The notes under the pieces are model-generated. The model was not told where the DNA came from, ran no database searches, and worked only from the letters and a program-made list of their open reading frames with translations. A DNA stretch of 64,000 bases from contig NZ_VFML01000001.1 of NCBI RefSeq assembly GCF_006715045.1, forward strand, positions 5,428,001-5,492,000, in the 5' to 3' direction. Each line of letters begins with the position of its first letter. Position 1 is the stretch's first letter. A program made the position numbers and the translations under genes. Positions 29,110-64,000 of this stretch are shown piece after piece. This DNA comes from Amycolatopsis cihanbeyliensis. Lineage in GTDB: Bacteria; Actinomycetota; Actinomycetes; Mycobacteriales; Pseudonocardiaceae.

Positions 29110-29883
29110 GTGGACGAAATGGTCGAGAATGCCGTTGGCCGCGCAATTGACATCATGTATCACAATATGGCCGATCAGGTCACGTTGGACGACATGGCGC
29201 GCGCGGCTATGTTCAGCAAATTTCATTTCTCGAGAGTTTTCCGGAAGGCCACCGGTGTTTCACCGGGCCGTTTCCTGGCTGCCCTGCGATTGCAGGAGGC
29301 GAAAAGGCTGCTGCTGTCCACGTCCCTGAGCGTGACCGAAATCAGCCAGCGAGTCGGTTACCAGAGCGTCGGGACCTTCAGCTCCCGGTTCCGCCGCAGT
29401 GTGAATATGTCACCGAGCACGTACCGGCGGATGGGCGGCGTCACCTTGCAGGTCTGTGGAACAGTCCCGCGCCAGCAACCGACCCCGAACCGGCCCGCGA
29501 CCGTACACGGCCAGATCGGCGCGCCACCCGTCCCGTCCGGGCTCGGCAAGGTCTTCGTGGGTCTGTTCCCCGACCGGCTGCCGCAGGGGCGCCCGGTGCG
29601 GTGCACGGTGTTGCGCGGCCCGGGGCCGTTCGAGTTCGGCGACGTGCCGCTGGGAACCTGGTACCTGCTGGGCTACTCCGTCGCGGTCGACCGGGACAAG
29701 GTGATCTCGGGCCCGCAGGATTACGGCAACGGGCTGTACATCGGGTCCAACGGGCCGATCACTATCCGGCCCGAGACCCAGGTGCGTGTCGCCGACCTGA
29801 CGTTGCGGCCGATGAACCGGCTGGACCCGCCGGTGCTGCTGGCCTTGCTGGACGCGCGCGAGTTGCAGCCGACGGGCACCTGA
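29110..29883 (+). CDS. AraC family transcriptional regulator (probable cluster regulator)
   Basis: A 257-residue regulator with the AraC double helix-turn-helix at its N-terminus (about residues 8-105): QVTLDDMARAAMFSKFHFSR, TGVSPGRFLAALRLQEAKRL, SVTEISQRVGYQSVGTFSSR and a final SPSTYRR. The remaining 140 residues form a beta-rich domain (VFVGLFPDRLPQGRPVRC, GTWYLLGYSVAVDRDKV), the reverse of classical AraC order. GTG 29110 is chosen for GGGGG five bases upstream. An in-frame GTG at 29083 has no Shine-Dalgarno site, and ATG 29119 is also possible. The position beside the UnbL-like gene suggests pathway control, similar to AraC-type regulators in other enediyne clusters. Confidence 0.83.
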   Translation: MDEMVENAVGRAIDIMYHNMADQVTLDDMARAAMFSKFHFSRVFRKATGVSPGRFLAALRLQEAKRLLLSTSLSVTEISQRVGYQSVGTFSSRFRRSVNMSPSTYRRMGGVTLQVCGTVPRQQPTPNRPATVHGQIGAPPVPSGLGKVFVGLFPDRLPQGRPVRCTVLRGPGPFEFGDVPLGTWYLLGYSVAVDRDKVISGPQDYGNGLYIGSNGPITIRPETQVRVADLTLRPMNRLDPPVLLALLDARELQPTGT

Positions 29884-29959
29884 GTGTGCTGTGGACGGTG
29901 TCGACACCCGTTCGGGAGGAGCACCGGCCGTTCGCCCACGCACCGTCCCCAGGACCGCC

Positions 29960-30946
29960 TCACCTAGGCAGGGAAGCGAAGTGCGCCCGGATCCTCTGCC
30001 GCCATGACTCGTATGTCAGGCCGGCGCCTGCCTCGTCGCCGTGGGCGATCGTGCCGTCCGCGAGTGCTACCGCCGCGTCGATGCCCACCTCGCCGAGCGC
30101 GTGCGCTGCCCACTCGGTGTGCTTGGGCACGTATCCCGCATAGGTCCTCGCTTTGACAGCGAACACCATGCCGAGCGCGACCTCGTCGCGGTACCGCCCC
30201 GCGAGGCGGCGTAGCGTCCGTAGCTCGTCCGGCTCGGCGTGGCCCGCGAACGTCGACGCCAGGCCCACCCCGCTCCACAGGTCGGCATGCCGTCGGGGGG
30301 CGAACCGGCCGACCGCGGCGGCTACGTCGTCGGGTCGTGCGCCGTGGATGAACCACAGTGCGCGGCCGATCCCCTGGTCGACCGCCCGGTGGAAGTAGTT
30401 CGGCTCGCCTTGCCAGGGGTACGGTGCCGGAACATGTTGCCGCTCGACCCATGTGCGGGTGTCGAAATAGGCGCGGTCGAACCCGTAGCCGTCCACCGCG
30501 AGCCAGCTCATCGCGGGATGGTACGGCGAGGACTCGGTCAGGTCTGGGAGGACCCGACGCCACAGCGGCCGGGGGAGGCGGGCCATGGCGAACCCGATGC
30601 CGATGTAGGCCAGGAACAGGTGCGGGCGCCCAGGGCCGTCGAGCAGATCGCGGGTCTTGTGGCCGCGTCCGCCGCGCATCGCGTCGAGGATCGTGCACGC
30701 CATCGTCGCGCCCTCGTAGGCGAAACCGAGTTGTTCCTGGCGTACCAGTGACAGCCTGCGTTCCAGCTCCCATTGCGAGCGGGTGTCGATGCCCCACTCG
30801 AAGCCACAGAGCACGGCTTGCGGTATGGCCTCCAGATGCCGGGCGACATCGGCCGGGGCCGGTGGGAAGCTCCGTCGTTCGAACGTGACCTCGGCCAGTG
30901 ACGGCGTCATCAACAGCCTGCGTACCGAGCCCAACGTGGTCGGCAT
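29960..30946 (-). CDS. unbL: DUF1702 family enediyne biosynthesis protein (UnbL-like)
   Basis: A 328-residue soluble protein that I recognise as DUF1702, the UnbL-type conserved accessory protein of enediyne clusters. Characteristic segments run along its whole length: EVTFERRSFP, LCGFEWGIDTRSQWELERRL, QLGFAYEGATMACTILDAM, HLFLAYIGIGFAMARLP, PAMSWLAVDGYGFDRAYFDT, NYFHRAVDQGIGRALWFIHG. Its enzymatic role is not established. It is believed to act with UnbV and UnbU and the enediyne PKS. AAGGAGGG precedes ATG 30946. It is last in the long minus-strand series and about 30 kb from unbV/unbU, an unusual separation. Confidence 0.9.
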   Translation of the reverse strand: MPTTLGSVRRLLMTPSLAEVTFERRSFPPAPADVARHLEAIPQAVLCGFEWGIDTRSQWELERRLSLVRQEQLGFAYEGATMACTILDAMRGGRGHKTRDLLDGPGRPHLFLAYIGIGFAMARLPRPLWRRVLPDLTESSPYHPAMSWLAVDGYGFDRAYFDTRTWVERQHVPAPYPWQGEPNYFHRAVDQGIGRALWFIHGARPDDVAAAVGRFAPRRHADLWSGVGLASTFAGHAEPDELRTLRRLAGRYRDEVALGMVFAVKARTYAGYVPKHTEWAAHALGEVGIDAAVALADGTIAHGDEAGAGLTYESWRQRIRAHFASLPR

Positions 30947-31118
30947 GATCCCTCCTTGCGGGCATCAGGCCCAAGTCGGCGGCCTTTCCACAGCTATCTC
31001 TCCGTGAGACTCACGGCCGGGTTCGCACAGCGGGAGGAAAGACTGCCCGAAGACGTGATACGAGCATGGAACGGTGAGTTTGTGTTCATGGAAAGGTGAG
31101 GCGGAAGTTCGACTCCGG

Positions 31119-31875: not shown

Positions 31876-31882
31876 CGGGCGA

Positions 31883-33190
31883 TCAACGCCTGGGGGAACG
31901 GGGACGCTCGGCAAGGTACTGGTCCAGCAGTACCTGTGCGTCGGCGGACGCTCGGGTCAGTCGCTCCACCGGGTCGACGTCGCGCACCAGCATGTCGTGC
32001 ATGGCCTCCGCGAGCAGTTCCTGAATCCGGAAGTAGTTGCCGACGAGCGCGCCGCCGGCGGGCCGGCCGTCGGCGGTCATCACCTCGAGCTGGTTGTTGG
32101 GTGCGCGGTGGTACGGCTGCTCGTCGAACCAGCCCTGCCGCTCCAGCAAGGCGAATCCGGAACGGGTGACCGGGATGAAGCTGTGTTCCTTGTGGTACTC
32201 GGCGACGTGGCCCGGGTTGGCGAGGTACTGCATAAACGCCAGCGCTCCGTCCTGAGTCTTCCGGTCCAGTCCATCGGCCAGCCACAGCGAGGTGCCGGCG
32301 ACCACGTTGCCGCGGTACGGCACGTCAGCGTTGTACGGGAACCGTGTCACGGCGAGCTCGAACCCGGCCTCCTTGGCGGCTTCGGCGGTGCTGCCGACGT
32401 CGTTGGACGAGCTCATCCGGAAGGCGATCTCCTGGTCGGCGAACAGCTGGAACGTGCCGAACCAGTCGCCGGTCTCGCCCGAGTACTGGTAGAGGCCGTC
32501 CTTGTACAGCTCGCGCCACCAGGACACCCAGGCAAGCATTTCCGGGATGGTGAAGTCGATCTTCTGGGCGGATGCCGTTCGGCCGTTGCCGTTGTCCGCG
32601 ATCTTTCCTCCCTGCACGGCCATGGCGTGCTGAAACGGGATCCCGTGGTTCGCCCAGCCGATCGCATGCGGCGGTCCGCCCGGCGACTTGACCACTCGTT
32701 CGCAGGCCGCTCGCAGGTCCTGCCATGTCTGCGGGACCTCGGTGACGCCCGCGGCCTCGAGCATGGTGACGTTGGTGAACAGGTTATAGGTGGTCGCCAC
32801 CGTGGGCAGCGATCTCAACTCGCCGTAGCACGTGTACTGGGCACGCAGCGCGGGCAGGATGTCGTCGAGCACGACCGGCTCACCGAGGATCTCGGTCCGG
32901 TCGCCGACCGCGGTGGAGACCGAGGTGAACACCGGTCGTCCAGCGTTGTCGACCTCGTCGAGCGCGTTCGGTGTCTCCGTGTAGTAGTACTCCGCGATCG
33001 CCGGGACCGTGCCCTCGCGCACCCCCTGTGCTACCGCGCCGGGCATGTCCTCGAAGTAGATTCCACGGATCCTGATCTCGTACTCGGGGTGCGCCCGCTC
33101 GAACTGGCGAGCCCGGGCGAACAGCGTGTCCATGTAGTAGGGAAAGGTCAGATCCGCCAACCAGGCATCCACGACTGTCCGGTCACTCAT
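31883..33190 (-). CDS. Cytoplasmic homologue of family-1 ABC solute-binding proteins (no signal peptide)
   Basis: A 435-residue protein with the two-lobed solute-binding fold signature along its length: FERAHPEYEIRIRGIYFEDM, MLEAAGVTEVPQTWQDLRAA, WVSWWRELYKDGLYQYSGE, FADQEIAFRMSSSNDVGS, VAGTSLWLADGLDRKTQDGA, QYLANPGHVAEYHKEHSFIP. The start ATG 33190, with AAGGAGAGGG upstream, leads directly into MSDRTVVDAWLADLTFPYY. There is no signal peptide, Tat motif or lipobox cysteine, and upstream frame extension enters the TPP gene. No permease or ATPase is nearby. It is probably a cytosolic binding protein or a repurposed enzyme working with the adjacent TPP enzyme (34-base gap). Function unknown. Confidence 0.83.
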   Translation of the reverse strand: MSDRTVVDAWLADLTFPYYMDTLFARARQFERAHPEYEIRIRGIYFEDMPGAVAQGVREGTVPAIAEYYYTETPNALDEVDNAGRPVFTSVSTAVGDRTEILGEPVVLDDILPALRAQYTCYGELRSLPTVATTYNLFTNVTMLEAAGVTEVPQTWQDLRAACERVVKSPGGPPHAIGWANHGIPFQHAMAVQGGKIADNGNGRTASAQKIDFTIPEMLAWVSWWRELYKDGLYQYSGETGDWFGTFQLFADQEIAFRMSSSNDVGSTAEAAKEAGFELAVTRFPYNADVPYRGNVVAGTSLWLADGLDRKTQDGALAFMQYLANPGHVAEYHKEHSFIPVTRSGFALLERQGWFDEQPYHRAPNNQLEVMTADGRPAGGALVGNYFRIQELLAEAMHDMLVRDVDPVERLTRASADAQVLLDQYLAERPRSPRR

Positions 33191-33224: not shown

Positions 33225-34877
33225 TCAGTGCGTCGATCCTGCCGAGGCCCGCGGCTCGACCAGGTAGTCGCCGACGACGTCCCGGACGACCTTGCAATCG
33301 AGCAGTAACGTGCCCACGCAGCCACGGGCACGCCAGCTGCGGACGGCGTCGAGGTCGCCCAGCGTCCGCACCACCGCCGCCTCCGCGCCGAGCGACTTGG
33401 CCAGGCCGTCGAAGTCGGTGTCCGTGAAGACCGTGCCCGCGGACACCTCGAGGTGCCGGTACATGTGGACCTCGGCGCCGTAGGCGGCGTCGTCGTACAC
33501 GATGATGAGCGCCGAGTCCGCCGTACGGATGAGGGTTTCGAGCTCGGACAGTCCCATGAGCGCTCCGCCGTCCCCCGTGGCCAGCACGACGGCGCGGTCG
33601 GCTCGTCCGGTGGCGGCACCGACGGCACCGGCGAATCCGAGGCCGATGCTCTGCATCGACACACCGGTGAACACGAATCCCGCCGGATCGGGGACCGACC
33701 AGTACCGTGCCGGCCAGCCGATGAAGTGGCCGCCGTCGGTGACCAGCGTGCGATCCTTCGGCAGCAGTTCGGCCAGTGCCAACGACAGGGTGCGAGGGTC
33801 GATCCGGTCGGCTGTGCTGCGGTCGGTGTAGTTCTGCTGGTCCCAGTGCACGCCATCGAGCCGGCCGGCGATCCGCCGCCGCCAGCCCGATGGCGGCGTC
33901 CCGGCCACGAGCAGGCGGTCGCACAGGGCGGTCGCGACGTCGAAGGCATCGGCGACGATCCCGATGTCCGTCCGCGGTGATATCTGTTCCGGCCGGAGAT
34001 CGACCTGGACCAGGGTGGTGTTCGGGCTGACCAACCGATCGCCGTGCAGGGTCCACTCGCTCAGGCTCGTGCCGAACGCCAGGATCACGTCGGCGTCGCC
34101 GATGAGCTCGGCGGCCGCCGGTGACGACAGGTTGCCCACGACGCCGAGCGACCATGGGTTGTCCCCGAAGATTCCCTTGGCCAGCAACGTGTTCGCGAGC
34201 AGACCGGCACACCGGTCGGCCAGTGCCGCGATCGGGGCCTGTGCGCCGGCGTGCCACGCGCCGAGTCCGGCCAGCAGCAGCGGGCTGCTGGCGGTGCCCA
34301 GGAGCTCCATCACCGTCCCGACCTCCGCCCGGGGCACCGGAGGCACCTCGGCCGGCACCGGTTCCGCCATCTCCGGTGGAAGTGTCCCCGCAGGCATCAC
34401 CTGCACGTCCACTGGCAGAAACACCACCACCGGACGATTCGCGGCGCTGGTGAACCGCAGCGCGCCGGCCACCGCCGCCGCGGCGTCCACCGGGGCGGTG
34501 ACCCGAACCACGGCGGCGCCGAGCGAGGCGACGAACGACTCGTCGTCGACGTCGATGGGCCGTGGCCGCCCTCCCGGTGGAGCGCCGCACAGCAGGACGA
34601 CGGCGCTACGGTTCTTCACCGCGTCGGCCAGGCTGGTGGCGGTGTTGGTCAGGCCTGGGCCATAGGTCACCGTGCAGACGCCCACCTCGCCGCAGACGCG
34701 GTGGTAGGCGTCGGCCATCGCCACGGCACCGGCCTCGTGCCGGGCCGGAATGTACCGCACCCCCGCCTTGGTCAGCGCGGCGACGACGCGAACGTTGCCC
34801 ACACCCACCACACCGAACGTGTGCCGGACACCCGCGTCGGCCAGCGCTCCGCCGAACGCCTCCGCGACCGTTGTCAT
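33225..34877 (-). CDS. Thiamine-diphosphate-dependent enzyme (acetolactate synthase/benzoylformate decarboxylase-like)
   Basis: A 550-residue protein with the three TPP-enzyme domains. The PYR domain has the catalytic Glu in IPARHEAGAVAMADAY. The central domain spans about residues 190-330 (ADVILAFGTSLSEWTLHGDR). The PP domain has GDGGALMGLSELETLI. The metal-binding motif normally written GDG-x(24-27)-NN ends here in VYDDAAYG, that is DD in place of NN or ND. Family members cleave or join C-C bonds next to carbonyls. No small regulatory subunit is present. Located between the solute-binding-like protein and an FAD monooxygenase, it may supply or decarboxylate a 2-oxoacid precursor of a peripheral group, which is inference. 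Confidence 0.87.
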   Translation of the reverse strand: MTTVAEAFGGALADAGVRHTFGVVGVGNVRVVAALTKAGVRYIPARHEAGAVAMADAYHRVCGEVGVCTVTYGPGLTNTATSLADAVKNRSAVVLLCGAPPGGRPRPIDVDDESFVASLGAAVVRVTAPVDAAAAVAGALRFTSAANRPVVVFLPVDVQVMPAGTLPPEMAEPVPAEVPPVPRAEVGTVMELLGTASSPLLLAGLGAWHAGAQAPIAALADRCAGLLANTLLAKGIFGDNPWSLGVVGNLSSPAAAELIGDADVILAFGTSLSEWTLHGDRLVSPNTTLVQVDLRPEQISPRTDIGIVADAFDVATALCDRLLVAGTPPSGWRRRIAGRLDGVHWDQQNYTDRSTADRIDPRTLSLALAELLPKDRTLVTDGGHFIGWPARYWSVPDPAGFVFTGVSMQSIGLGFAGAVGAATGRADRAVVLATGDGGALMGLSELETLIRTADSALIIVYDDAAYGAEVHMYRHLEVSAGTVFTDTDFDGLAKSLGAEAAVVRTLGDLDAVRSWRARGCVGTLLLDCKVVRDVVGDYLVEPRASAGSTH

Positions 34878-34929
34878 TGTGCTCCCTTGGTCACTGCCGC
34901 ACGGCGGCTGGAGTCGATCGTCGAACAGA

Positions 34930-36228
34930 TCATCCGGCGTGCTGGAGTACGCGGCGTTTCATGTCCGGTTCCATCAGCGTCGCCGGGGGATCCACCAGGC
35001 CGGCCACCCGCATGAACGCGGTCAGCACCTCCGGGTCCTGGCACGCGGCGGCCATCACCTTCGCCATGTACTCGTTCATCTGCAGAACCTCGTCGGGGCG
35101 ACTCCCCACCACCTCGGGATAGGCAAGGTCACCGCTCGCGGCGGTGCCCCACGGCGCGTCGATCACGTCGGCGATGGCCCGCTGGAACGCTAGTGGCTCC
35201 AGCGGCCCGCGCCGCACATGCTCACGCAGCACCAACGCCTCCAGCGCGGACACGGTCATGCCCTGCCCGTAGACGGGGTTGAAGCTGCAGGCCGCGTCGC
35301 CGAGCACGATGAATCCGTCCGGGAAGCCGGTCAGCTTGTCGTAGCGAGGGCGGACACTTGCCGGAAACCGGAAGGAAACCGGGTCAGTGAGCGGTTCCGC
35401 GTCGGCGATCACCTGGTAGATGTCCGGGACCGGCAGGGTCCGCACGTAAGCCAGGAACCCCTCCGGATCGGTGGGTGCGCGGTCACCGAGCACCCCACCG
35501 ACCGAGAGCACCCACTTGCCGTCCTCCATCGCCGAGAAGAAGGCACTGCGGCGGGTTACCGGAGAGGGCAACGGGTTGACGGACTTCACGCCGTTCATCA
35601 CCGACTCGTCCGGCAACCGGTAGAGCCTGGTGGTGTAACTGAAGTCGATCTTGATCTGTTCGAAGGCCGGCCGGGCGTAACCGAGTTCGTCCAGCCACAC
35701 CGGGGTACGCGAGCCGCGACCGGTGGCGTCCACCACGAGGTCGCCTTCCAGCGTCGCCTCGGATCCGTCGTGCACCCGTGCGCCGGTGATCCGGGTCCGG
35801 TCGGGGCTCGCGACGAGGCCGACGATGTCATGCTGTTCCAGGAACTTCACGTTGCCCAACGCCGCGACCCGGTCCCGGACAAAGCTTTCCAGCACCGGCC
35901 TGGTGGCCGAAAGGTACCTCATGCCGGTGACCGCCTTGCACGCCTCATGCCCCGCGAAGAACCACCGGTGCTCGCCGAGGTCACCGGTCAGCGCGCCGGC
36001 CGCCAGCGCGTCGTCGGTAAACCCGTCGAACAGCTCATCGAGGATCTGATGGCCGCGGGCGAGCAGCCCGTGAATGTGCGCGCCCTGCGGGACGCCGCGG
36101 CGTGGTGTCGTGACACCGAGCAACCCGTCGCGGTCCACCACGAGCACTTCGGTGTAGGTCTCGGCCAACACCCGCGCTGCGAGCAGCCCGGCCATGCTCC
36201 CGCCAAGTATCACCGCGCGGGTGCCCAT
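34930..36228 (-). CDS. FAD-dependent monooxygenase/oxidoreductase (PHBH-like fold)
   Basis: A 432-residue flavoprotein. The N-terminal nucleotide-binding motif reads AVILGGSMAGLLAARVLAE, with the acidic end of strand two in VLVVDRDGL. The second FAD motif GDAACSFNPVYGQGMTVSALE is near residue 310. VVDATGRGSRTPVWLDELGY lies between them. The pattern is that of aromatic hydroxylases and epoxidases. The tryptophan motif of flavin halogenases (WxWxIP) is absent, so halogenation is unlikely. It follows the SgcJ-like gene by about 30 bases. Likely an oxygenation step on the core or on an aromatic side group. Confidence 0.85.
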   Translation of the reverse strand: MGTRAVILGGSMAGLLAARVLAETYTEVLVVDRDGLLGVTTPRRGVPQGAHIHGLLARGHQILDELFDGFTDDALAAGALTGDLGEHRWFFAGHEACKAVTGMRYLSATRPVLESFVRDRVAALGNVKFLEQHDIVGLVASPDRTRITGARVHDGSEATLEGDLVVDATGRGSRTPVWLDELGYARPAFEQIKIDFSYTTRLYRLPDESVMNGVKSVNPLPSPVTRRSAFFSAMEDGKWVLSVGGVLGDRAPTDPEGFLAYVRTLPVPDIYQVIADAEPLTDPVSFRFPASVRPRYDKLTGFPDGFIVLGDAACSFNPVYGQGMTVSALEALVLREHVRRGPLEPLAFQRAIADVIDAPWGTAASGDLAYPEVVGSRPDEVLQMNEYMAKVMAAACQDPEVLTAFMRVAGLVDPPATLMEPDMKRRVLQHAG

Positions 36229-36259
36229 ATGTGCCTCCTCAGCTGGAAGATGTCGGTGT

Positions 36260-36688
36260 TCACCACGGGTTGTTCACGGGCGTGTTCTGGTACGCGGCGA
36301 GACGCCATTCCGCCCCGTGCCGCACGACCACCCAGGAGGCGTGAATGGCTCGCTGGTGGCTGGGCTCGGTCTCGCCGGAGGCCAGCACACCGCCGCGGGA
36401 AAGCAGGATCGCGGCGTTGTCGCCGAGCATGCGCATGCTGATCGGCGTGCCCGTCACCCGCGTGCCCTTGAACGGCCCTTGGAACGCCTGGGTCAGGAAC
36501 TCGCGGGCCTCGTCGCGGCCGCTGCAGAAGACCCCGGTGAGGATCATGGTCGCGTTGTCGACAAACTGGTCGGCGAACGCGTCGGCGTCGTGGCTCGCCC
36601 ACGCGGCGGCCACTCGCTGGGTCAGTGCCGCGATGGCAGCCTTGTCGGCGTCGGCAGGCTCGGTGACGAGCTCGGTACTCGTGCTCAT
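36260..36688 (-). CDS. sgcJ-like: SgcJ/EcaC family protein (SnoaL-like cone fold)
   Basis: A 142-residue protein of the NTF2/SnoaL-like superfamily, matching the SgcJ/EcaC group by AAIAALTQRVAAAWASHDAD, FADQFVDNATMILTGVF, GRDEAREFLTQAF, RAIHASWVVVRHGAEWRLAA and the ending YQNTPVN. SgcJ comes from the C-1027 cluster, and homologues are conserved in nine-membered enediyne clusters. Structures are known, but the catalytic role is not settled. AAAGGA precedes the ATG. Its presence supports the enediyne reading and hints at the nine-membered class, although the family also occurs outside these clusters. Confidence 0.85.
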   Translation of the reverse strand: MSTSTELVTEPADADKAAIAALTQRVAAAWASHDADAFADQFVDNATMILTGVFCSGRDEAREFLTQAFQGPFKGTRVTGTPISMRMLGDNAAILLSRGGVLASGETEPSHQRAIHASWVVVRHGAEWRLAAYQNTPVNNPW

Positions 36689-36709
36689 CGTTCTGTCCTT
36701 TCCGGATCG

Positions 36710-37891
36710 TCAGACGTACTGGGAGTTCGGCGGGAGGCCGCACAGCACGCGGCCGTACAGTTCGGCGTTGGTGTTCGGGTGCATCAGGGCGTGCTGATGG
36801 ACGGCTTGGATGTCCCGGGCGATTCGCTGGATCGGCACATCGCTGTAGATCGACGTGCCGCCGCTGGCCGTAGCGAGGATGTCGACCGACTCCCGTACGA
36901 GACGCACGGCCTGGCCCAGGTCGGCGCGTGCCAGCACACGTTCCTCCATCTCCCACTGCGTACCCTCGTTGCCCTTCGTGTCCACGACGGTGGCCAGGCG
37001 CTGCACGTGGAACTCGGCCTCGTCCAGCTTCATCGAGGCCTCGGCGACCTGCAGGTGGGTCAGGGGAGCGTCCCGTTGGCTGTCATAGTCGGTATAGGTG
37101 ATCTTGCGGCCGGGCAGCCGCTCGGCGAACGCCTGCTTCGCCGCCTTACCGAGGCCCACGATGCAACCGCTCGACGAGGCTGCGGCCACCGGAAGCAACG
37201 GGATGCGGTAGGCCCTGGACTCCGCGGTTCGTTGGGACACCGGTTTGCCGTCGACCGCGGCCATCAACGACAGCACACGTTCCTGCGGGACGAACACCTC
37301 GTTGGCGACGGTGCTGACACTTCCCGTGCCCCGCAACCCCGACGTGTGCCAGTCATCGACGATGCCCAGGTCGGACATCGGTACGAGGGCCATCACCGGC
37401 TGCGGCTCGCCGTCTGGCGGTACGAGAATCGCGATGATCTGCTGCCAATGACTGTGGTGCGCACCGCTGATGAACTGCCACCTACCGTTGACCACGACCC
37501 CGCCGTTCGTCGGGGTGGCCGTCGCGCTCGGGCTCAGCGTGCCGCAGATGCGGGTGTCCGGGTCGGCGAACACCTCGTCCTGCACCTCGTCGGGGAACAT
37601 GCACGCCATCCAGCCGGGGATCGTGTAGACCGTCGCGACCCACGCGGCCGACCCGTCGCCACGGCCGAGTTCGGACAGCACGTCCACCAGCGTGCTGGTG
37701 TCTGCTTCGTACCCGTTGTAGCGTTTCGGCTTGCGTATCCGGAACACGCCCGCATCGGCCATCGCCTCGATCACTTCGTCATGCAACCGCCGGTTCTCCT
37801 CGGCCCACGGCGCGTGTTTCTGCAGGAGCGGCACGATCTCGGATGCTTTGCTTGTCATTTGCTGCCGTGAAGGGAAACCGATCTTCGTCAC
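36710..37891 (-). CDS. Acyl-CoA-dehydrogenase-fold flavin monooxygenase (HsaA/DszC-like)
   Basis: A 393-residue protein of the acyl-CoA dehydrogenase superfamily with a type-2 C-terminal domain. Segments include LSELGRGDGSAAWVATVYTI, CGTLSPSATATPTNGGVVVN, GRWQFISGAHHSHW, DWHTSGLRGTGSVSTVANEV and DILATASGGTSIYSDVPIQR. The fold is used both by dehydrogenases and by two-component monooxygenases such as HsaA and KijD3. The absence of CoA-pathway neighbours favours the latter. GTG 37891 is chosen for GGAGG at ideal spacing. A longer upstream frame has no such site. A flavin reductase partner is not obvious nearby. The DHFR-like protein or the LLM enzyme are candidates. Confidence 0.85.
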   Translation of the reverse strand: MTKIGFPSRQQMTSKASEIVPLLQKHAPWAEENRRLHDEVIEAMADAGVFRIRKPKRYNGYEADTSTLVDVLSELGRGDGSAAWVATVYTIPGWMACMFPDEVQDEVFADPDTRICGTLSPSATATPTNGGVVVNGRWQFISGAHHSHWQQIIAILVPPDGEPQPVMALVPMSDLGIVDDWHTSGLRGTGSVSTVANEVFVPQERVLSLMAAVDGKPVSQRTAESRAYRIPLLPVAAASSSGCIVGLGKAAKQAFAERLPGRKITYTDYDSQRDAPLTHLQVAEASMKLDEAEFHVQRLATVVDTKGNEGTQWEMEERVLARADLGQAVRLVRESVDILATASGGTSIYSDVPIQRIARDIQAVHQHALMHPNTNAELYGRVLCGLPPNSQYV

Positions 37892-37925
37892 GATGTCCTC
37901 CGGGTCCAGAATCGATGGGTGAGCT

Positions 37926-38801
37926 TTACTCCCTGCCGAGTTCGGGCAGCACCTTCGCACCGATGAGCTCGACCTGGCGGAGCGGATCGGGCGAGGCAAC
38001 GATGCCGATCACGGTCTGGATGCCTTGACCGGCCAGCTGTTGCAGAGTCTCGAGCAACTCGCCGGTCCCTTCACCGTTGCCGACGTCGAAGGGCAGGCAG
38101 CAGGTCTTCTCGATGTCGTCGTAATCCCTGCCGACCTCTGTGCAGATCTCCCGCAACCGCTCCAGCCGATCGGGCATGTCCGGGGTCGGGTAGAGGTTGC
38201 ACGCGTCGGCGTACCGGGCCACCAGCCGCAAGGTCTTGTCCCCGGCCCCGCCGACCATGATCGGCGGATGTGGTCTGGTCAGGCTCTGCGGAACACCCAG
38301 GATCCGGTCGAGGTGGTAGTGCTTGCCGTGGTGTGCCAGGCCGTTACCCCGCTCGCCGTCCCAGTAGCCGAGCAGGATCCGCAACGTCTCCTCGAGCATC
38401 TCGAACCGCTCGGCCACGGGGGGAAACGGGATGCCGGAACCGGCCGTCTCGTCCGCGTTCCAGCCCACCCCGATGCCCACCGAGGCCCGGCCACCGGAAA
38501 GGATGTCCAGCGTGGTGACCGTCTTGGCCAGTAGGGCCGGGTGCCGGAAGTGCACACCGGCGACCACCGGCGAGATCCGGCAGTGCCTGCTGTTGGCCGC
38601 CATCACGGCGAGCGTGGTGAAGCACTCCAGATAGGGTGCTTCCTCGCCGCCCGCGTTGAAGCCCTGCCACAGATGGTCACCCGTGCTCAGCGACGTGAAC
38701 CCGGCCTCGTCGGCGAGCTGGGCGAATCGTGTGACCGTGTCCCCTATCGCGCGCGGCCCACCGGGCCAGTCGAACGCTCCCAATTCCAGACCTACCCGCA
38801 C
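37926..38801 (-). CDS. LLM class flavin-dependent (possibly F420) oxidoreductase
   Basis: A 291-residue TIM-barrel protein of the luciferase-like superfamily. Motifs include LADEAGFTSLSTGDHLWQG, CRISPVVAGVHFRHPALLAK, LDILSGGRASVGIGVGWNAD, FEMLEETLRILLGYWDGE and PPIMVGGAGDKTLRLVARYA. The last two are typical of F420- or FMN-dependent members. GTG 38801 is preferred because GAGGAG lies seven bases upstream. The annotated-looking GTG at 38816 actually forms part of that site. It could reduce or hydroxylate a pathway intermediate. Substrate and cofactor are not certain. Confidence 0.87.
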   Translation of the reverse strand: MRVGLELGAFDWPGGPRAIGDTVTRFAQLADEAGFTSLSTGDHLWQGFNAGGEEAPYLECFTTLAVMAANSRHCRISPVVAGVHFRHPALLAKTVTTLDILSGGRASVGIGVGWNADETAGSGIPFPPVAERFEMLEETLRILLGYWDGERGNGLAHHGKHYHLDRILGVPQSLTRPHPPIMVGGAGDKTLRLVARYADACNLYPTPDMPDRLERLREICTEVGRDYDDIEKTCCLPFDVGNGEGTGELLETLQQLAGQGIQTVIGIVASPDPLRQVELIGAKVLPELGRE

Positions 38802-38857
38802 GCTAAGACTCCTCACTGTGTCGAGATTGTGCTGATGTGCACATCGTGTGATCGGTT

Positions 38858-40099
38858 TCAGGCATTCGCGGGCAGCGCCGCGGTCAGCCGGACCGGCAGG
38901 GTGGTGTGGGCGTTCATGATGAACGTCGGCAGCGGCTCCAACTGGCCCGGTTCGACCGCGAGGCTCATGTCCGGGAACCGCTCGAACAGGGCGGGCAAGC
39001 CGGTCGACGCCACCAGCCGGGCGATTCCGGAGCCGAGGCAGTAGTGCGGGCCGTGCCCGAACGAGACGTGATCCTTGTTCGGCCGGGTGACATCGAAGTC
39101 GGCCGCGGTCGCGCCGTGCAGTTCCGGGTCGCGCCCCAGCGCGGCGTAGTTGATCAGGATCGGCTCACCCCGCTTGATGGTCAGGCCATCCAGTTCGACA
39201 TCCTCCACCGCGAACCGCAACGGCAGGCTGGCCAGCGGGCACTCGACGCGCAGGGTTTCCTCGATCACGTCGGACCAGCCGGCCTTGCCCGACCTGACCA
39301 GGTCGAGCTGATCGGGACGGGTGAGCAGGGCGGTGATCGCGTTGTCCAGAAAGTTGATCGTGGTGTCCGAGCCGGCGCCGAGGATCGCGAAGATGGTGTC
39401 GGTCAGCTCCTGGTCGGACAGCTTCGCGCCGTCCTCGTCGTCACGCGCGGCGATCAAGTCGCTGGCGATGTCCTCGCCGGGGTTCGCCCGCTTGTCGGCG
39501 ATCAGCTCTTCGATCGCGGCACGCCAACCGGCGAGGATGCCCGCCGCCTGTTCGGGAGTGACGTCGATGTCCGCCATCCGGTTCATCGCGATCGCGGTCT
39601 GCCTGCGCTGCTCCTCGGTCATGCCGATCACGCCGGCCATCAGCCGCGCGGGAAGGGGGTAGCAGAACATCGCTCGCAGGTCGACCGTGTCTCCCTGCTC
39701 CGCGGCGATATCGTCGAGCAGGCTGGTGACCAGCTCGGCTACCCGCGGTCGCAGTTGCTCGACTCGCCGAGCGGTGAACGCCTTCCCGATCAGCCTGCGC
39801 AGCCGGAGGTGGTCGGCGCCGTACGCGGTGGACACGTTGTCCATCGCCACCCAGCTGATCAGTTGCCAGCCGGGTGGGATCTCGCCCTCGCGGAACGCGG
39901 GCCAGTGTGCGTGCGCGCTCTTGGTGACGTTGCGATCGCCGAGCAACTGCTTGGCGACCTCGTAGCGGGTGACCCACCACGCGTGCACGCCGCCGGGAAG
40001 CTCCACCCGGACCGCGGGTCCCTGGTCACGCAGCTTGGTCGCGAGTTCGTGGATTCCACTGCCGCTGCTGTCGAGCACCGGGCATCGGCTCGTCGACAT
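38858..40099 (-). CDS. Cytochrome P450 monooxygenase
   Basis: A 413-residue soluble P450 of the actinomycete CYP107/105-like type. The I-helix oxygen-activation motif is [16 protein letters not shown], the ExxR pair is in EETLRVE, and the heme-binding loop is [18 protein letters not shown] with the proximal Cys. AAGGAGGA precedes ATG 40099. No dedicated ferredoxin gene is adjacent. It most likely hydroxylates or epoxidises the enediyne core or a carrier-bound side group. The neighbouring A-PCP and C genes make a PCP-tethered substrate plausible. Confidence 0.93.
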
Positions 40100-40116
40100 G
40101 GCTGTCCTCCTTCATA

Positions 40117-41352: not shown

Positions 41353-41393
41353 GGGCACTGGCTCCTTGTCGCGTGCGTGGCGGGGATACACGA

Positions 41394-42692: not shown

Positions 42693-42706
42693 CCGGTCGT
42701 ATCTCC

Positions 42707-49283: not shown

Positions 49284-49288
49284 AGCAC

Positions 49289-52672: not shown

Positions 52673-52774
52673 GCGCCGGTTTCCGGTGCGCGTTACGGCA
52701 TCCGGCGAGAAGCTGTGCCTCGGTGCCGTGCCCATGATGGAATGTAGTTGTCGCATACTGATAGGTGCTGAACG

Positions 52775-53950
52775 ATGAGCGATATCCTCCCTTTCCGTGT
52801 CGAAGTTCCGCAGGCCGACATCGACGAACTGCATCGGAGGATCGACGCCGCCAGGTGGCCGGACGAGATTCCGGGAACCGGTTGGGAACGAGGTGTCCCG
52901 CTGGGATATCTCAAGGAGCTGACGGAATACTGGCGGACGAAGTTCGACTGGCGGGCAGCGGAAAGGTGGCTCAACCAGTACCCGCAGTTCACGACCGAGA
53001 TCGATGGCGCCAACGTGCACTTTCTGCACGTCCGGTCGGCGGAACGTGACGCGACGCCGCTGATTCTCACCCACGGCTGGCCCAGTTCGTCCGCGCAGTA
53101 CATCGACATGATCGGCCCGCTGACCGACCCGGTGGCGCACGGCGGAGAACCGGAGGACGCCTTCCACGTGGTGGTTCCCACCATTCCGGGCTACGGGTTC
53201 TCCGGTCCCACCGGGCAGCAGGGCTGGAGCATGAGCAGGGTGGCGCGGGCGTGGGCCGAGCTGATGAGGCGACTCGGCTACGACCGGTACGTCACGCAGG
53301 GCGGAGACTGGGGCAAGGTGGTCTCGCTCGAGCTCGGCCGTATCGACGCGGAACACATCGATGCGGTGCACATCAACATGCTGGTCACGATGTTCGAGGA
53401 CGACCCGGCGGTACTGGAGGGGCTGTCCGAGGAAGACATGAGGAAGGTCGAGCACACGCGCTGGTTCGCCGACGTGTGCACGGCCTGGAGCCGGCAGCAG
53501 GCAACCAGGCCGCAGACCCTCGCCTACGCGTTGACCGACTCGCCGATCGGCCAGCTTGCGTGGATTACCGAGAAGTACAAGGAATGGGCCGATACGGTAG
53601 ACCGGCCGGAGGACGCGATCGACCGCGACACGCTGCTGACGATCGTGTCCACCTACTGGTTCACGGCAACCGCGGGATCCAGCGCCCACATGTACTTCGA
53701 AACCATGCATACCATGGCCGACCATATCCGGACTTGGGGCGGGCCGTGGCCGATTTCCGTTCCGGTCGGTGTCGCGGTATTCCCGGCCGACGCCACCCGA
53801 CCGATTCGGCGGTTCGCCGAGAAGGCACTGCCGTCGATGACGCGCTGGACGGAGTTCGACCGGGGCGGTCATTTCGCACCGCTGGAGCAGCCCGAGTCGT
53901 TGGTCGGCGACATCCGGGAGTTCGTCCGGTCGGTGCTGCGACCGTCGTGA
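52775..53950 (+). CDS. Epoxide hydrolase (SgcF/NcsF2-like, EHN N-terminal domain)
   Basis: A 391-residue alpha/beta hydrolase. The N-terminal EHN domain starts PFRVEVPQADIDELHRRI, DAARWPDEIPGTGWERG, YWRTKFDWRAAERWLNQYPQ. Then come the oxyanion motif LTHGWPSSSAQY, the nucleophile Asp in TQGGDWGKVVSLEL, and the catalytic His in FDRGGHFAPLEQP. Tyr residues of the lid lie in between. Homologues in nine-membered enediyne clusters open an epoxide on the core to a vicinal diol before side groups are attached. Its last 82 bases overlap, tail to tail, the 3-prime end of the GT87-like gene on the other strand. Confidence 0.9.
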   Translation: MSDILPFRVEVPQADIDELHRRIDAARWPDEIPGTGWERGVPLGYLKELTEYWRTKFDWRAAERWLNQYPQFTTEIDGANVHFLHVRSAERDATPLILTHGWPSSSAQYIDMIGPLTDPVAHGGEPEDAFHVVVPTIPGYGFSGPTGQQGWSMSRVARAWAELMRRLGYDRYVTQGGDWGKVVSLELGRIDAEHIDAVHINMLVTMFEDDPAVLEGLSEEDMRKVEHTRWFADVCTAWSRQQATRPQTLAYALTDSPIGQLAWITEKYKEWADTVDRPEDAIDRDTLLTIVSTYWFTATAGSSAHMYFETMHTMADHIRTWGGPWPISVPVGVAVFPADATRPIRRFAEKALPSMTRWTEFDRGGHFAPLEQPESLVGDIREFVRSVLRPS

Positions 53951-60612: not shown

Positions 60613-62604
60613 ATGCCAGCTGACCGTGCTCGAAAATCGGTTCCCATTCTCGCCGTCGTTATCACGCTTGTGGCGCTCCATGCGGCCGGCCAGAGCGCGG
60701 TGGCGGTGGACGGTGCGGACCAGACCGCCGAGCCTTACAAGTTCCGGGAAATGCCGATTCCGCTGCCGGACGGTTACAACGAGCAGCCGATGAAGAGCAT
60801 CCGGCAGGTAAACCCCAGCTACCAGCACATCGCATCCTGGATCTCCGCGATCGGCGCGTCCGTGGCCATCAACGACCTCACCGGGAACGGTCGGGCCAGC
60901 TCACTGTGCCTCGTGGACCCGAGGACCGACGACGTGATCGTCACGCACACGCCGACGGCTCCGCAGGAGGACCGGTTCAGCCCGTTCGTTCTTGACGCCG
61001 CACCGCTGCCGTTCGACGACACTATGGCGCCGACCGGCTGCACCCCCGGCGACTACAACATGGACGGTCGGATGGACCTGCTGGTCACCTACTGGGGACG
61101 TACACCGATCCTGTTCCTGGCCAAGTCGGACGCAACCTCGGTGAGCAATGACGCCTACCGGCGGCAGGAACTGGTCGCGTCCGAATCGGCGGACGGCCGT
61201 TATCACGGTCCCAAATGGAACACCGACGCGGTCCACGTCGATGACTACGACGGCGACGCGCGCCCGGACATATTCATCGGCAACTACTTCCCAGACTCGG
61301 ACGTCCTCGGTTCCGACGGTATGAAGAACGTCGAAATGAACTTGTCGATGTCCACCGCTACCAATGGCGGCGGCGGGCACATTCTGCGCTGGCACGCGGC
61401 CACGTCCGGCCCGGAACCGTCCGTCTCGTACGTGCCGGAGCCGGAGGCGGTTCCGTACGAGGCGGCCACCGGCTGGACCCTCGCCGTGTCCGGGGCGGAC
61501 CTGGACGGTGACGGGCTGCCCGAGGTCTACATCGCCAACGACTTCGGCCACGATCACCTACTGCACAACCGCTCTACCCCGGGGCGGATCAGGTTCGGCC
61601 TTGCCGAGGGGTCGGGTTCGGCGATCACTCCGAAGTCGTTCGTGCTGGGCGACGACTCGTTCAAGGGTATGGGTGTCGACTTCGGTGACCCGAGCGGCAA
61701 GGGCCGCTTCGACATCGTGGTCAGCAACATCACCGTCCCATGGGGCTTGCAGGAGAGCAACTTCTTCTGGGAGAACCAGACCCGCGACCACGAGGAGATG
61801 CGTGAGCGGCTCGCCGCGGGCGACGCACCGTTCACCCAGCAGGCGGAGGATTACGGCCTGGCGTGGTCCGGGTGGTGTTGGGACGTCAAGTTCGGTGACT
61901 TCCTCAACGACGGCAACCTGGCCGTCGTCCAGTCGACCGGCTTCATCAAGGGCGACCGGAACCGGTGGAACTGGCTGCAGGAACTGGCGACCATCAACGA
62001 CGTCCTGGTGAGCAACCCGAGCATGTGGCCGAACATGCGGCAGGGCGATGACCTCGCCGGGGACGATGTGCTCGCCTTCTATGCCAAGAAGCCGGACGGC
62101 AGGTACGTCGACGTCGCCGAGCAGCTCGGTCTCGACGTGCCGATCCCGTCGCGAGCCATCGCGACCGGTGACACGACCGGCACCGGTGCGCTGGACTTCG
62201 CCGTCGCGCGGCAGTGGGGGCCGTCGTCGTTCTACGCCAACGAGTCACCGGACCGTGGTTCGGCGTTGACCCTGCGGCTGTACCAACCGCCCGAAGGCGA
62301 CGGGACCACGTCCGGCGCACGTACCGGACTTTCCGGTGTCGGTGCGCCGGCCTACGGCGCGACCGTCACCGTCACGACGCCGGACGGTCGTACCCAGGTA
62401 TCCCAGCTGGATGGCGGGGGCGGACACAGTGGTTTCCGCAGCTTCGAGGTCCGGTTCGGTCTCGGCGAGGAAACCGGTCCGGTGACAGCGCACCTGAACT
62501 GGCGTGACGCCGACGGCCAGCTGCGGAACGAGACCGTGGAACTCAGGCCGGGCACATACTCACTCGTGCTGTCGAACACCGTGCAGGAGGTTTCGAGCCG
62601 ATGA
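60613..62604 (+). CDS. unbV: UnbV-like enediyne biosynthesis protein (VCBS/FG-GAP repeats, ASPIC/UnbV domain)
   Basis: A 663-residue protein with an N-terminal signal-type helix (VPILAVVITLVALHAAG). Several FG-GAP/VCBS-like repeats follow, visible as calcium-loop patterns DYNMDGRMDLLVTY, DYDGDARPDIFIGNY, ADLDGDGLPEVYIANDF and FGDFLNDGNLAVVQS. The C-terminal ASPIC/UnbV domain runs from about residue 580 (GAPAYGATVTVTTPDGRTQV, RSFEVRFGLGEE). UnbV proteins are conserved in enediyne clusters, probably outside or at the membrane. The function is unsettled. ATG 60613 follows GAGGAG. The stop overlaps the unbU start (ATGA). Confidence 0.93.
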   Translation: MPADRARKSVPILAVVITLVALHAAGQSAVAVDGADQTAEPYKFREMPIPLPDGYNEQPMKSIRQVNPSYQHIASWISAIGASVAINDLTGNGRASSLCLVDPRTDDVIVTHTPTAPQEDRFSPFVLDAAPLPFDDTMAPTGCTPGDYNMDGRMDLLVTYWGRTPILFLAKSDATSVSNDAYRRQELVASESADGRYHGPKWNTDAVHVDDYDGDARPDIFIGNYFPDSDVLGSDGMKNVEMNLSMSTATNGGGGHILRWHAATSGPEPSVSYVPEPEAVPYEAATGWTLAVSGADLDGDGLPEVYIANDFGHDHLLHNRSTPGRIRFGLAEGSGSAITPKSFVLGDDSFKGMGVDFGDPSGKGRFDIVVSNITVPWGLQESNFFWENQTRDHEEMRERLAAGDAPFTQQAEDYGLAWSGWCWDVKFGDFLNDGNLAVVQSTGFIKGDRNRWNWLQELATINDVLVSNPSMWPNMRQGDDLAGDDVLAFYAKKPDGRYVDVAEQLGLDVPIPSRAIATGDTTGTGALDFAVARQWGPSSFYANESPDRGSALTLRLYQPPEGDGTTSGARTGLSGVGAPAYGATVTVTTPDGRTQVSQLDGGGGHSGFRSFEVRFGLGEETGPVTAHLNWRDADGQLRNETVELRPGTYSLVLSNTVQEVSSR

Positions 62605-63599
62605 CCACCACCGTCCGGCAGCCCCCGGCCGCTCCCGTCGCCCCGTCGCCTGCCTCACCCCCCGCACCGGCGAAGCCCGACCCCCGCTACCTGGCGCTGC
62701 GCAACTTCGCCCTGTCGATCTCCGTATTCAACATCTTCGGCTACGCCCTGCTCGGATTCGAGCAACCGTGGCTATGGCCGATACTCAGTGTGCTGACCGG
62801 CTATGCGGCCGAACTGGTGTTCGAGAAGGTCACCGCGTGGGCCTACCGCCGGGAGCCACGGTACGTCGGCCGCGGTGGCCGTGGGCTGTACGAGTTCCTG
62901 CTGCCTTCGCACATCACCGCTATCGCCGTGAACATGTTGTTGTACGCCAACAACCAGTTCTGGCCGATCGCCTTCGGGGTGATAGTCGGTGTGGGCGCCA
63001 AGTACGTCCTGTGGGCACCGATCGCTGGCCGGATACGGCACTACATGAACCCGTCGAACTGCGGCATCGCCGTCACGCTCGTGGCGTTCAGCAGCTGGGT
63101 CAGCCTCGCGCCGCCGTACCAGTTCAGCGAGAACGCCAACACGTTCTGGCGGGTGATGATCCCGATCATCATCATCACCGCGGGTACGACCATCAATGGC
63201 CTGCTGACCAAGCGCATCCCACTGATCGTCGGCTGGCTCGGCGGGTTCGCCATCCAGGCGTTCGTTCGCCACTGGATCTGGGACGTGTCGCTGTACGGGG
63301 CGTTGGGTGTGATGACCGGTATCGCGTTCGTGCTGTTCACCAACTATATGATCACCGATCCTGGCACGACGCCCATGAAGGGACGCAACCAGTTCATGTT
63401 CGGCGCCTCCGTGGCCACCGTCTACGGGGTGCTCATGGTCTTCGACGTGGTCTATACCATGTTCTTCGCGACCGCGATCGTCTGCCTGGCGCGTGGTCTC
63501 GGCTGGTGGGGGGCGCATTTCAGGCGCCGGCGCAGAGAGCAGCGGGCCACGAAGATCCGAACGAACCTTCTGAGCAACGGGGAGACATCGTCATCATGA
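62601..63599 (+). CDS. unbU: UnbU-like enediyne biosynthesis membrane protein (RnfD/NqrB-like)
   Basis: A 332-residue membrane protein with about eight helices after a proline-rich cytoplasmic N-terminus. Segments are ISVFNIFGYALLGFEQPWL, LPSHITAIAVNMLLYANNQF, NPSNCGIAVTLVAF, TAGTTINGLLTKRIPLIVGW and NYMITDPGTTPMKGRNQFMF. The last motif (TDPxTxP...GR..FG) resembles the conserved end of RnfD/NqrB electron-transport subunits, so a redox role at the membrane is possible. UnbU proteins accompany enediyne PKS genes. The start is coupled to unbV (ATGA), and its stop is coupled to the next small ORF. Confidence 0.92.
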   Translation: MTTTVRQPPAAPVAPSPASPPAPAKPDPRYLALRNFALSISVFNIFGYALLGFEQPWLWPILSVLTGYAAELVFEKVTAWAYRREPRYVGRGGRGLYEFLLPSHITAIAVNMLLYANNQFWPIAFGVIVGVGAKYVLWAPIAGRIRHYMNPSNCGIAVTLVAFSSWVSLAPPYQFSENANTFWRVMIPIIIITAGTTINGLLTKRIPLIVGWLGGFAIQAFVRHWIWDVSLYGALGVMTGIAFVLFTNYMITDPGTTPMKGRNQFMFGASVATVYGVLMVFDVVYTMFFATAIVCLARGLGWWGAHFRRRRREQRATKIRTNLLSNGETSSS

Positions 63600-63721
63600 G
63601 CGAGCAAATCGCGGTCGGGAAGGTGCGCCGGCCGGACGGGTGTCCACAGGTCGAGCGAGGACCGGGTGGTGGGCTCGCCGATCCGTTGGCGCCCGGCATG
63701 GTGACCGGAGGAGAGGACTGA
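63596..63721 (+). CDS. Coupled 41-residue ORF between unbU and the thioesterase
   Basis: A 126-base frame starts with an ATG overlapping the unbU stop (ATGA) and ends two bases before the thioesterase ATG. The peptide is hydrophilic and Gly/Pro-rich (EQIAVGKVRRPDGCPQVERG, then LADPLAPGMVTGGED). It has no recognised family. Its last codons contain the GGAGGAGAGG ribosome site for the thioesterase, so ribosome passage through it could couple translation of the two genes. Whether the peptide itself has a role is unknown. It may be only a translational link. Confidence 0.5.
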   Translation: MSEQIAVGKVRRPDGCPQVERGPGGGLADPLAPGMVTGGED

Positions 63722-63723
63722 TC

Positions 63724-64000
63724 ATGGCGCCGTACTACGAGCTGCGGCATCTGGTCGGCTTCGAGGAGACCACTGTCGTCGGCAACGTCTATTTCGTCAA
63801 CTACATGCGCTGGCAGGGCAAGTGCCGGGAGATGTTCCTCAGGGAGAACGCGCCGGATGTGCTGGCGAACTTCGGCGCGGACATGATCCTGTTCACCGTC
63901 AAGGTCGAGTGTGAGTTCCTCGCCGAGCTCGCACTGTTCGACGAGCTGTCCATCCGGATGCGGCTGGTGGACCTGACGCAGACACAGATCGAGTTCGGGT
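63724..64000 (+). CDS. E10-like: Enediyne polyketide thioesterase (E10/CalE7-like), truncated by the window edge
   Basis: The first 92 residues of a hotdog-fold thioesterase are present. YYELRHLVGFEETTVVGNVY, then FVNYMRWQGKCREMFL, RENAPDVLANFGADMILFTV and KVECEFLAELALFDELSIRM match the enediyne-specific E10/CalE7/DynE7 family, including GNVYFVNYxxWQGKCRE with the active-site Arg and Asn region. These enzymes release the polyene chain from the enediyne PKS. GGAGGAGAGG lies upstream of ATG 63724. The PKS gene normally neighbours this gene and is not in the window to its left, so it is expected to the right. Confidence 0.93.
   Translation, partial: MAPYYELRHLVGFEETTVVGNVYFVNYMRWQGKCREMFLRENAPDVLANFGADMILFTVKVECEFLAELALFDELSIRMRLVDLTQTQIEFG

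Follow-up and report, generated by a model that had tools for sequence, protein, structure and literature searches.

Where is the polyketide synthase (PKS) that belongs with the enediyne accessory genes in a 64-kb stretch of the Amycolatopsis cihanbeyliensis genome, and how did the two come to lie apart? The stretch (hereafter the window: 64,000 nucleotides of contig NZ_VFML01000001.1, G000:C1:5428001-5492000) is part of a 7.44-Mb genome in two contigs, and coordinates are given in its frame, i.e. genome position minus 5428000. The enediyne PKS (E) builds a polyene, which is released by the thioesterase E10; formation of the core is assisted by UnbV, UnbU and DUF1702 proteins. We found the PKS to the right of the window, in a clade that conflicts with that of UnbU, and we consider it quite likely that two enediyne lineages merged at this locus and that redundant copies were then pruned, so that the accessory operon lost its own PKS and another one serves in its place. 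The flanks beyond the window were read too, the right one being needed for the PKS and the rest of E10, and overlapping genes skipped by the gene callers (a solute-binding-protein-like (SBP) gene and DUF1702 copy b) were added from open reading frame (ORF) lists and profiles.

The preliminary description of this DNA had placed a DUF1702 gene, which we take to be UnbL/E3, at 29960, UnbV at 60613, UnbU at 62601 and an E10-type thioesterase at 63724. All four assignments were borne out (Table 1), DUF1702 and UnbV being accepted by their profiles and UnbU through homology only. UnbU matched no Pfam or NCBIfam family, and its relatives carry the names UnbU or 'enediyne biosynthesis protein E5'. The best solved relatives of E10 are 4i4j, an 'ACP-polyene thioesterase', and CalE7, with DynE7 among those listed. 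A PKS had been expected within about 20 kb of the right edge. Its near end lies 18,270 bases past the window and its start 24,200 past; the distance is 18.7 kb to UnbU and 18.1 kb to E10. The protein carries the ketosynthase Cys, the acyltransferase GHS and an acyl carrier protein (ACP)-like motif, and many of its relatives are named enediyne polyketide synthase by their sources. No Pfam match was obtained for the ACP or the phosphopantetheinyl transferase (PPTase), nor was the PPTase pattern matched; the ACP-like motif and the C-terminal region were recognised by eye. The enediyne set of DUF1702, UnbV, UnbU and E10 is complete, in line with the five-gene set E3, E4, E5, E and E10 described in PMC5181780.

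DUF1702, UnbV and the PKS were searched for by profile and homology in 80 genomes of the genus, among them this one, with the first 900 aa as the PKS query and E values up to 1e-150. DUF1702 was found in 68 of the 80 genomes, UnbV in 68 and the PKS in 69. For 73 of the 82 PKS matches UnbV lay within 12 kb (median gap 6.0 kb), and for three there was no UnbV on the contig. It lay farther off on the same contig for the other six, namely this locus, with 22.9 kb between the matches, and five at 57-62 kb (G003, G005, G026, G053 and G057). In G026, genes for the HpaB hydroxylase, SgcJ-like protein, acyl-CoA-dehydrogenase-like 1 (ACAD1), condensation (C) enzyme and P450a adjoin the PKS. The preliminary description had stressed that the UnbL-like gene is split from UnbV and UnbU by about 30 kb. 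Copy a is indeed distant, but copy b, overlooked there, lies 4.5 kb from UnbV by profile-hit coordinates. Among the 79 UnbV matches in the genus, 48 had two DUF1702 genes within 3 kb, 17 had one within 3 kb and one at 26-28 kb, 12 had a near one only and one (G001) had DUF1702 at 10 kb; this locus alone lacked any within 3 kb, its two copies being less than 60 kb away. Since a distant DUF1702 copy is common, the split is not the main oddity.

The stronger oddity is that the PKS stands away from both UnbU and E10, belongs to a clade other than that of UnbU, and that the gap between UnbU and E10 contains a PKS-like scar. Our set of named loci comprised 78 distinct loci from 107 stretches encoding a relative, of which 76 could be evaluated for adjacency (L105 and L097 are on short contigs). 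In 75 of these E10 is the gene immediately after the PKS, the exception being Saccharomonospora piscinae, and in 16 UnbU directly precedes the PKS in a contiguous UnbU-PKS-E10 operon. Neither the contiguous E5-E nor the E-E10 arrangement, customary though not defining for enediyne clusters, was present here.

The PKS and UnbU differ in apparent ancestry. The PKS is 76-82% identical to those of S. piscinae, L040, L044 and L063 and 53-57% to those of the 16 UnbU-PKS-E10 operon loci, whereas UnbU is 53-54% identical to L040, L044 and L063 and 64-74% to the operon-type loci. Trees were built from 37 UnbU rows and 36 PKS rows, L041 having been removed from the latter by a length filter. The PKS grouped with those of Saccharothrix yanglingensis, A. 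fastidiosa and A. oryzae (L040/L044/L063) with an SH-aLRT value of 100, and its joining to the Micromonospora/Streptomyces operon-type clade was rejected by the approximately unbiased (AU) test (p 6e-27). UnbU fell on the opposite side, with the Micromonospora/Streptomyces-type operons (support 100/100), and its joining to L040/L044/L063 was likewise rejected (p 0.00015). The E10 tree favoured the side of UnbU (96/85). UnbV was compared by identities only, L048 and L071 being removed from that set by the length filter. An operon-type UnbU together with a PKS of the other clade was seen in five further named loci, L048, L071, L099 and L111 by both trees and L041 by the UnbU tree and PKS identity, so that such mixing is recurrent; in all five the PKS and E10 still adjoin. 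The same combination as in the present locus probably occurs in Umezawaea Da 62-37 and Saccharopolyspora NPDC000359, judging by PKS and UnbU identities of 83%/83% and 79%/80%, respectively.

Between UnbU and E10, where operon-type loci hold their PKS, lies a mini-ORF of 41 codons. The end of UnbU overlaps its start by ATGA (63596-63599) and its stop stands just before the start of E10; in operon-type loci the PKS begins at the same spot, and if its earliest possible start is used, 12 of the 16 show this overlap too. The first 21 nt of the mini-ORF match the L094 PKS start at 19 positions, and it is the only one of 12,009 start codons in a 162-kb region to reach this score. When aligned from the stop codon, its last 48 nt agree with PKS ends at as many as 31 positions, a score that no other of 1,455 ORF ends attains (next best 29). 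The mean 3' score against the 16 operon-type PKSs was 27.9, while seven other cluster genes taken as a control gave 3' means of 15.2-20.5 and 5' maxima of 13-16. At the protein level the C-terminal score was reached in 0 of 2000 shuffles and the N-terminal one in 11 of 2000. In a member of the same genus (G078:C21) UnbV-UnbU-PKS-E10 is contiguous, and its PKS gives a 3' score of 28/48.

A second relic lies beside the PKS itself. The spacer between the PKS and the P450 gene contains a stretch (88466-88608) that resembles the start of a DUF1702 gene in L040, L044 and L063, the sister clusters of the present PKS, with 71% identity across about 146 nt. It has frame changes, and the rest of the gene is gone. 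Among loci L039 onward, the other matches (L097, L149) were weaker and partial only. In S. yanglingensis the order at this site is PKS, then DUF1702-UnbV-UnbU-P450-methyltransferase (MT3), and in L040 and L044 the PKS adjoins an additional DUF1702 copy. This relic implies that the present PKS arrived, or persisted, together with neighbouring genes which were later removed. Searches of the same spacer for UnbV or UnbU relics gave, among the matches listed, a best E of 0.14. Behind the PKS (81800-82330), the best match to E10 among those listed had an E of 0.003 and was on the opposite strand, and was not accepted.

The first codons of the DUF1702 relic are interrupted by a miniature inverted-repeat transposable element (MITE)-like sequence, at a place where the S. 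yanglingensis sequence is uninterrupted. The element is present in two copies (28460-28797 and 88294-88470) of about 170 bp, 95% identical, with inverted ends matching at 13 of 16 positions and CTCA flanking each; copy 1 contains a 161-bp insert with internal repeats. No copy was found in loci L039 onward, L009-L038 lying outside the search.

The proposal of a merger draws on gene content, the conflicting trees, the likeness of both relics and synteny with S. piscinae. One lineage would have given a UnbV-UnbU-[PKS]-E10-flavin reductase operon, whose PKS would then have been deleted, leaving an in-frame scar of 41 codons that still links UnbU to E10. The other would have given the present PKS with its P450 and methyltransferase, and deletion of the DUF1702-UnbV-UnbU genes between them would have left the DUF1702 relic. 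The recipient cluster, the order of events, the activity and the product are what we infer beyond this. In the cell, the iterative PKS should build the polyene, E10 should release it, and the UnbV, UnbU and DUF1702 proteins would help to make the core.

Three named loci are among the closest known to this one. S. piscinae KCTC 19743 (L039; G080:C5 ~212.9-278.4 kb) also has E10 apart from the PKS, but its block of MDMPI, PKS, P450 and MT3 is inverted, the GT87 gene is unmatched there and neither relic is found; it has no PKS scar, UnbU and E10 overlapping instead, and no DUF1702 relic. Streptomyces sp. CB02923 (L082; G087:C24 1.07-1.12 Mb) shares much of the tailoring set and the UnbV/UnbU type, and has a nearly identical adenylation-peptidyl carrier protein (A-PCP) pocket. 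Its PKS, however, is of another clade and in place between UnbU and E10. Identities to CB02923 are 42% for the SBP protein, 51% for the berberine-like oxidase, 56% for A-PCP, 65% for the epoxide hydrolase and 76% for HpaB. An intact operon with a shared tailoring set fits the state before a PKS swap. S. yanglingensis Hhs.015 (L063) resembles the present locus in its PKS (79%), P450 (83%) and methyltransferase (79%), the PKS being divergently oriented from DUF1702-UnbV-UnbU-P450-MT3. It differs in that E10 follows the PKS, DUF1702-UnbV-UnbU lies between the PKS and P450, and UnbU is only 54% identical.

Several observations weigh against this proposal. The alternative grouping of E10 was not rejected by the AU test (p 0.056), and the groups submitted to the test had been chosen after the identities were inspected. 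The five other mixed loci have no visible scar: behind UnbU, three-frame translations read by eye revealed no likeness to PKS ends in five mixed loci (L041, and L125-L128 for L111, L048, L071 and L099) or in two unmixed ones (L095 and L129). The scar is not firmly typed to one PKS clade, as good scores are also obtained with 58 PKSs of the other clade (5' best 19; 3' mean 24.9, best 30), and among other genes individual 3' ends attain 29 (P450) and 27 (E10 and AraC). Of the 3' tests on DNA only the stop-anchored one is strong, since the unanchored alignment score was equalled by 65 of the 1000 shuffles and by 182 of the 2,024 background pieces. As S. piscinae has neither relic, each has been seen in one genome.

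The direction of the merger is also left open, because SgcJ, ACAD1 and P450a share 61/65/63% identity with S. yanglingensis but only 49/55/48% with CB02923, and so the recipient is not settled. Within the merger, it is thus a tentative alternative, with somewhat worse than even prospects, that a cluster with the present type of PKS was the recipient and gained a UnbV-UnbU-E10 operon whose PKS was lost before or on arrival. The five mixed loci, which keep the PKS and E10 together, fit this direction, and so do the three genes just named. It is opposed by the genes for SBP, the berberine-bridge-like oxidase, MFS1, the epoxide hydrolase and MT1, which were found in CB02923 but not within the 60 kb of S. 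yanglingensis covered, and by A-PCP, which is 56% identical to CB02923 against 43% to S. yanglingensis.

It seems unlikely that this is an ordinary enediyne cluster of a known kind, unusual in gene order alone. Enediyne loci are common in the genus, as the UnbV count shows, and E5 or E10 apart from E has already been reported in the enediyne family (PMC5181780). Separation of both E5 and E10 from the PKS is, however, shared by S. piscinae alone among the 76 evaluable named loci, and such a reading leaves the two relics unexplained. We regard as improbable, too, a simple rearrangement within a single lineage, in which an inversion or translocation carried the resident PKS over about 18 kb, with the mini-ORF as its remnant. 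The block containing the PKS is inverted between this genome and S. piscinae, and the end of the present PKS carries a similar, offset motif. The UnbU and PKS trees are nevertheless in strong conflict, the resident PKS matches the scar at 15/21 positions at its 5' end and 16/48 at its anchored 3' end against 19/21 and up to 31/48 for operon-type PKSs, and the DUF1702 relic best matches the PKS's own sister clusters. That the mini-ORF is an ordinary leader or spacer which resembles PKS ends by chance is very improbable: it is short and GC-rich, its N-terminal protein likeness is modest, the unanchored 3' test is weak and the unanchored 5' score was reached by 0 of 1000 shuffles and 4 of 2,024 background pieces (which may include the scar or the present PKS), but the two ends agree with PKS ends in order, strand and register at the very site of the PKS in 16 named loci, no other start or ORF end of the region scores as well, and the control genes score lower on average.

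We return to the merger of two lineages. It is likely that the locus, with relics on both sides (the scar coupling UnbU to E10, and the MITE-bearing DUF1702 relic), represents a merged and pruned cluster, a minimal cassette that is a natural hybrid of two deep lineages, which would imply that the PKS and its UnbV/UnbU/E10 partners are interchangeable in nature. We found no earlier report of enediyne PKS replacement with relics among the open-licence PubMed Central (PMC) papers listed by our searches. If the PKS can be exchanged with UnbV, UnbU and E10 across lineages, polyene building and core closure would be separable, and the locus would offer a natural hybrid in which to ask the old question of which factors other than the PKS determine the fate of the polyene. 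A PCR screen described in PMC5181780 targets E5/E or E/E10 neighbours. Since E5 and E10 are both apart from E, such a screen would presumably miss this cluster, which is a warning for enediyne surveys that rely on these adjacencies.

The preliminary description had recognised an enediyne cluster at 29110-64000. The cluster stands, but its range does not: by synteny with S. piscinae it extends from ~26141 to ~91381, about 65 kb. S. piscinae shares 46 of 47 cluster genes at 68-94% identity (45 of 46 in the gene comparison, plus the SBP gene), the GT87 gene being the sole exception. This count is made without a 75-aa ORF at 28541-28768, which lies inside a MITE-like copy and has no S. piscinae match. 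Gene order is the same apart from the inverted block. Within the 100 kb of S. piscinae covered, genes beyond both borders are not matched in place and have only weaker matches elsewhere. At the left edge stands a GMC oxidoreductase and DUF5987 pair, which many named enediyne loci also have close to the PKS or E-genes. As the scores exceed curated cut-offs and the gene order recurs in S. piscinae, the assignments are more than chance, and on sequence grounds this is a complete-looking enediyne gene cluster.

Table 1. Features of the A. cihanbeyliensis enediyne cluster in window coordinates; percentages are identities to S. piscinae
Feature	Position	Strand	Basis and remarks
GMC oxidoreductase and DUF5987 pair	26141..28326	-	Pfam; left edge; 87%/80%
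AraC-type regulator	29083..29883	+	74%
DUF1702 copy a (UnbL-like)	29960..30946	-	PF08012, 458 bits (cut-off 25)
SBP gene	31883..33190	-	End of ORF 31883-33949, start approximate; 83%
Tailoring block	33225..41526	-	All genes kept in S. piscinae
SgcJ-like	36260-36688	-	TIGR02246; solved relative 4i4k
Free-standing C enzyme	41394..42710	-	Best solved relative 4znm, 327 bits
A-PCP didomain	42707..44509	-	Profiles
Berberine-bridge-like oxidase, DUF2306, DUF2855, class III aminotransferase, FAD-linked oxidase	44603..50662	-	76-84%
MFS exporter and epoxide hydrolase	51086..53950	+	Profiles, solved relatives
UnbV (E4)	60481 (or 60613)-62604	+	UnbV_ASPIC, 44.4 bits (cut-off 23.4), plus FG-GAP
UnbU (E5), Micromonospora/Streptomyces type	62601..63599	+	Homologues, tree
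Mini-ORF, 41 codons, read as deleted-PKS scar	63596..63721	+	Resembles PKS 5' and 3' ends
E10 thioesterase	ORF 63640-64197, likely start 63724	+	4HBT_2, 48.1 bits (cut-off 25.5); solved relatives; window end cuts gene
Flavin reductase	64201-64722	+	Directly after E10; beyond window
DUF1702 copy b	67052-68047 (G000:C1:5495052-5496047)	-	Profile; beyond window
Third MFS	ORF 67721-69871		Profile
B12-binding radical SAM enzyme	71026-73005	-	
HpaB-type hydroxylase	73303-74841	+	Best solved relative 4oo2, 924 bits
Enediyne PKS (E), 1976 aa	82270-88200 (G000:C1:5510270-5516200)	-	Pfam KS, AT, KR, DH
MITE-like element copy 2	88298-88466		In first codons of DUF1702 relic; CTCA on both sides
DUF1702 relic	88467-88608	+	Between PKS and P450; likeness to DUF1702 5' end
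P450 and methyltransferase (MT3)	88597-91381	+	Right edge of cluster

The remaining genes named in the preliminary description, i.e. the SgcJ-like protein, epoxide hydrolase, A-PCP, free C enzyme and P450, were all recovered by profiles or solved relatives, as was the opposite-strand series ending at DUF1702, with minus-strand genes spanning 29960 to 50662. Both of its MFS pumps are present, and a third lies beyond the window. The tailoring block encodes a thiamine pyrophosphate (TPP) enzyme, a flavin adenine dinucleotide (FAD) oxidoreductase, the SgcJ-like protein, ACAD1, a luciferase-like protein, a P450 and acyl-CoA-dehydrogenase-like 2; an O-methyltransferase, the flavin reductase and the B12 radical SAM enzyme are also among the tailoring genes. 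The block would probably make an aromatic acid and attach it by means of A-PCP, the HpaB hydroxylase and the free C enzyme.

The specificity residues of the A domain read SVYHLGMLFK in this cluster and in S. piscinae and NVYHLGMVFK in CB02923. The first pocket place is thus Ser here, where alpha-amino-acid domains have Asp; in five more distant A domains it is D (S. yanglingensis, L090, L044 and G026) or P (L116). The code of hydroxyphenylglycine A domains is DIFHLGLLCK, and comparison of the pocket with it suggests a mandelate-like (hydroxymandelate-like) acid without an amino group. This leads to a testable prediction, an amine-free aromatic acid side group. Three genome matches to the hydroxymandelate-synthase-type family PF14696 were found, all outside the cluster. 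A neocarzinostatin-type apoprotein (PF00960) was unmatched here and likewise in every control genome.

Among chromoprotein enediynes such as C-1027, close solved relatives were found for E10, SgcJ, HpaB, the C enzyme and the epoxide hydrolase; 4i4k is labelled SgcJ in the structure table, and 4oo2, 4znm, 4i4j and 4i19 we take to be C-1027 proteins. The HpaB hydroxylase and free C enzyme, traits of C-1027-type beta-amino-acid enediynes, are both present here. In contrast to C-1027, the cluster has no MIO aminomutase and its A domain lacks the amino-binding Asp. The genome has matches to PF00221 only at genome positions 5396051 and 1015136, both outside the cluster, and a beta-tyrosine pathway was set aside since there is no aminomutase in the cluster. 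Enediyne compounds and a cluster, those of the amycolamycins, are already known from Amycolatopsis (PMC8037709). That paper describes, for Amycolatopsis sp. HCa4, an A-PCP, a hydroxylase, an O-methyltransferase and a type II condensation enzyme for the mandelate moiety, together with NDP-sugar and 6-methylsalicylate genes. Compared by that description only, the present cluster differs, with no NDP-sugar or 6-methylsalicylate genes in Pfam scans of all its genes but the 109-aa one at 74982.

Some further genes deserve mention. The SBP-like gene, in which no signal peptide is obvious by eye, is kept in S. piscinae, Streptomyces CB02923 and Kitasatospora GP82. A GT87-type membrane glycosyltransferase (53869-55167) lies between the epoxide hydrolase and a methyltransferase and is unmatched in 100 kb of S. 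piscinae. The MFS genes at 57805-59341 and 68297-69835 are in inverted orientation with 73% DNA identity over 1.5 kb, a pair on which recombination inside the cluster could possibly act. Genes for a PQQ-type beta-propeller and for NHL-repeat proteins adjoin at 76708-79675 (81-82% to S. piscinae) and are unmatched in the stretches read of CB02923, GP82 and S. yanglingensis.

Outside the cluster, the region 12054-22826 contains sugar-uptake and glycoside-hydrolase genes with LacI-type regulators, apparently unconnected to the enediyne cluster. At 98672-110595 lies a Pks13-like PKS with additional DH and KR domains, next to genes for an esterase, an AMP-ligase, a PMT-type transferase and a lipase. 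We take this region to resemble a mycolate-type locus with an unusual PKS.

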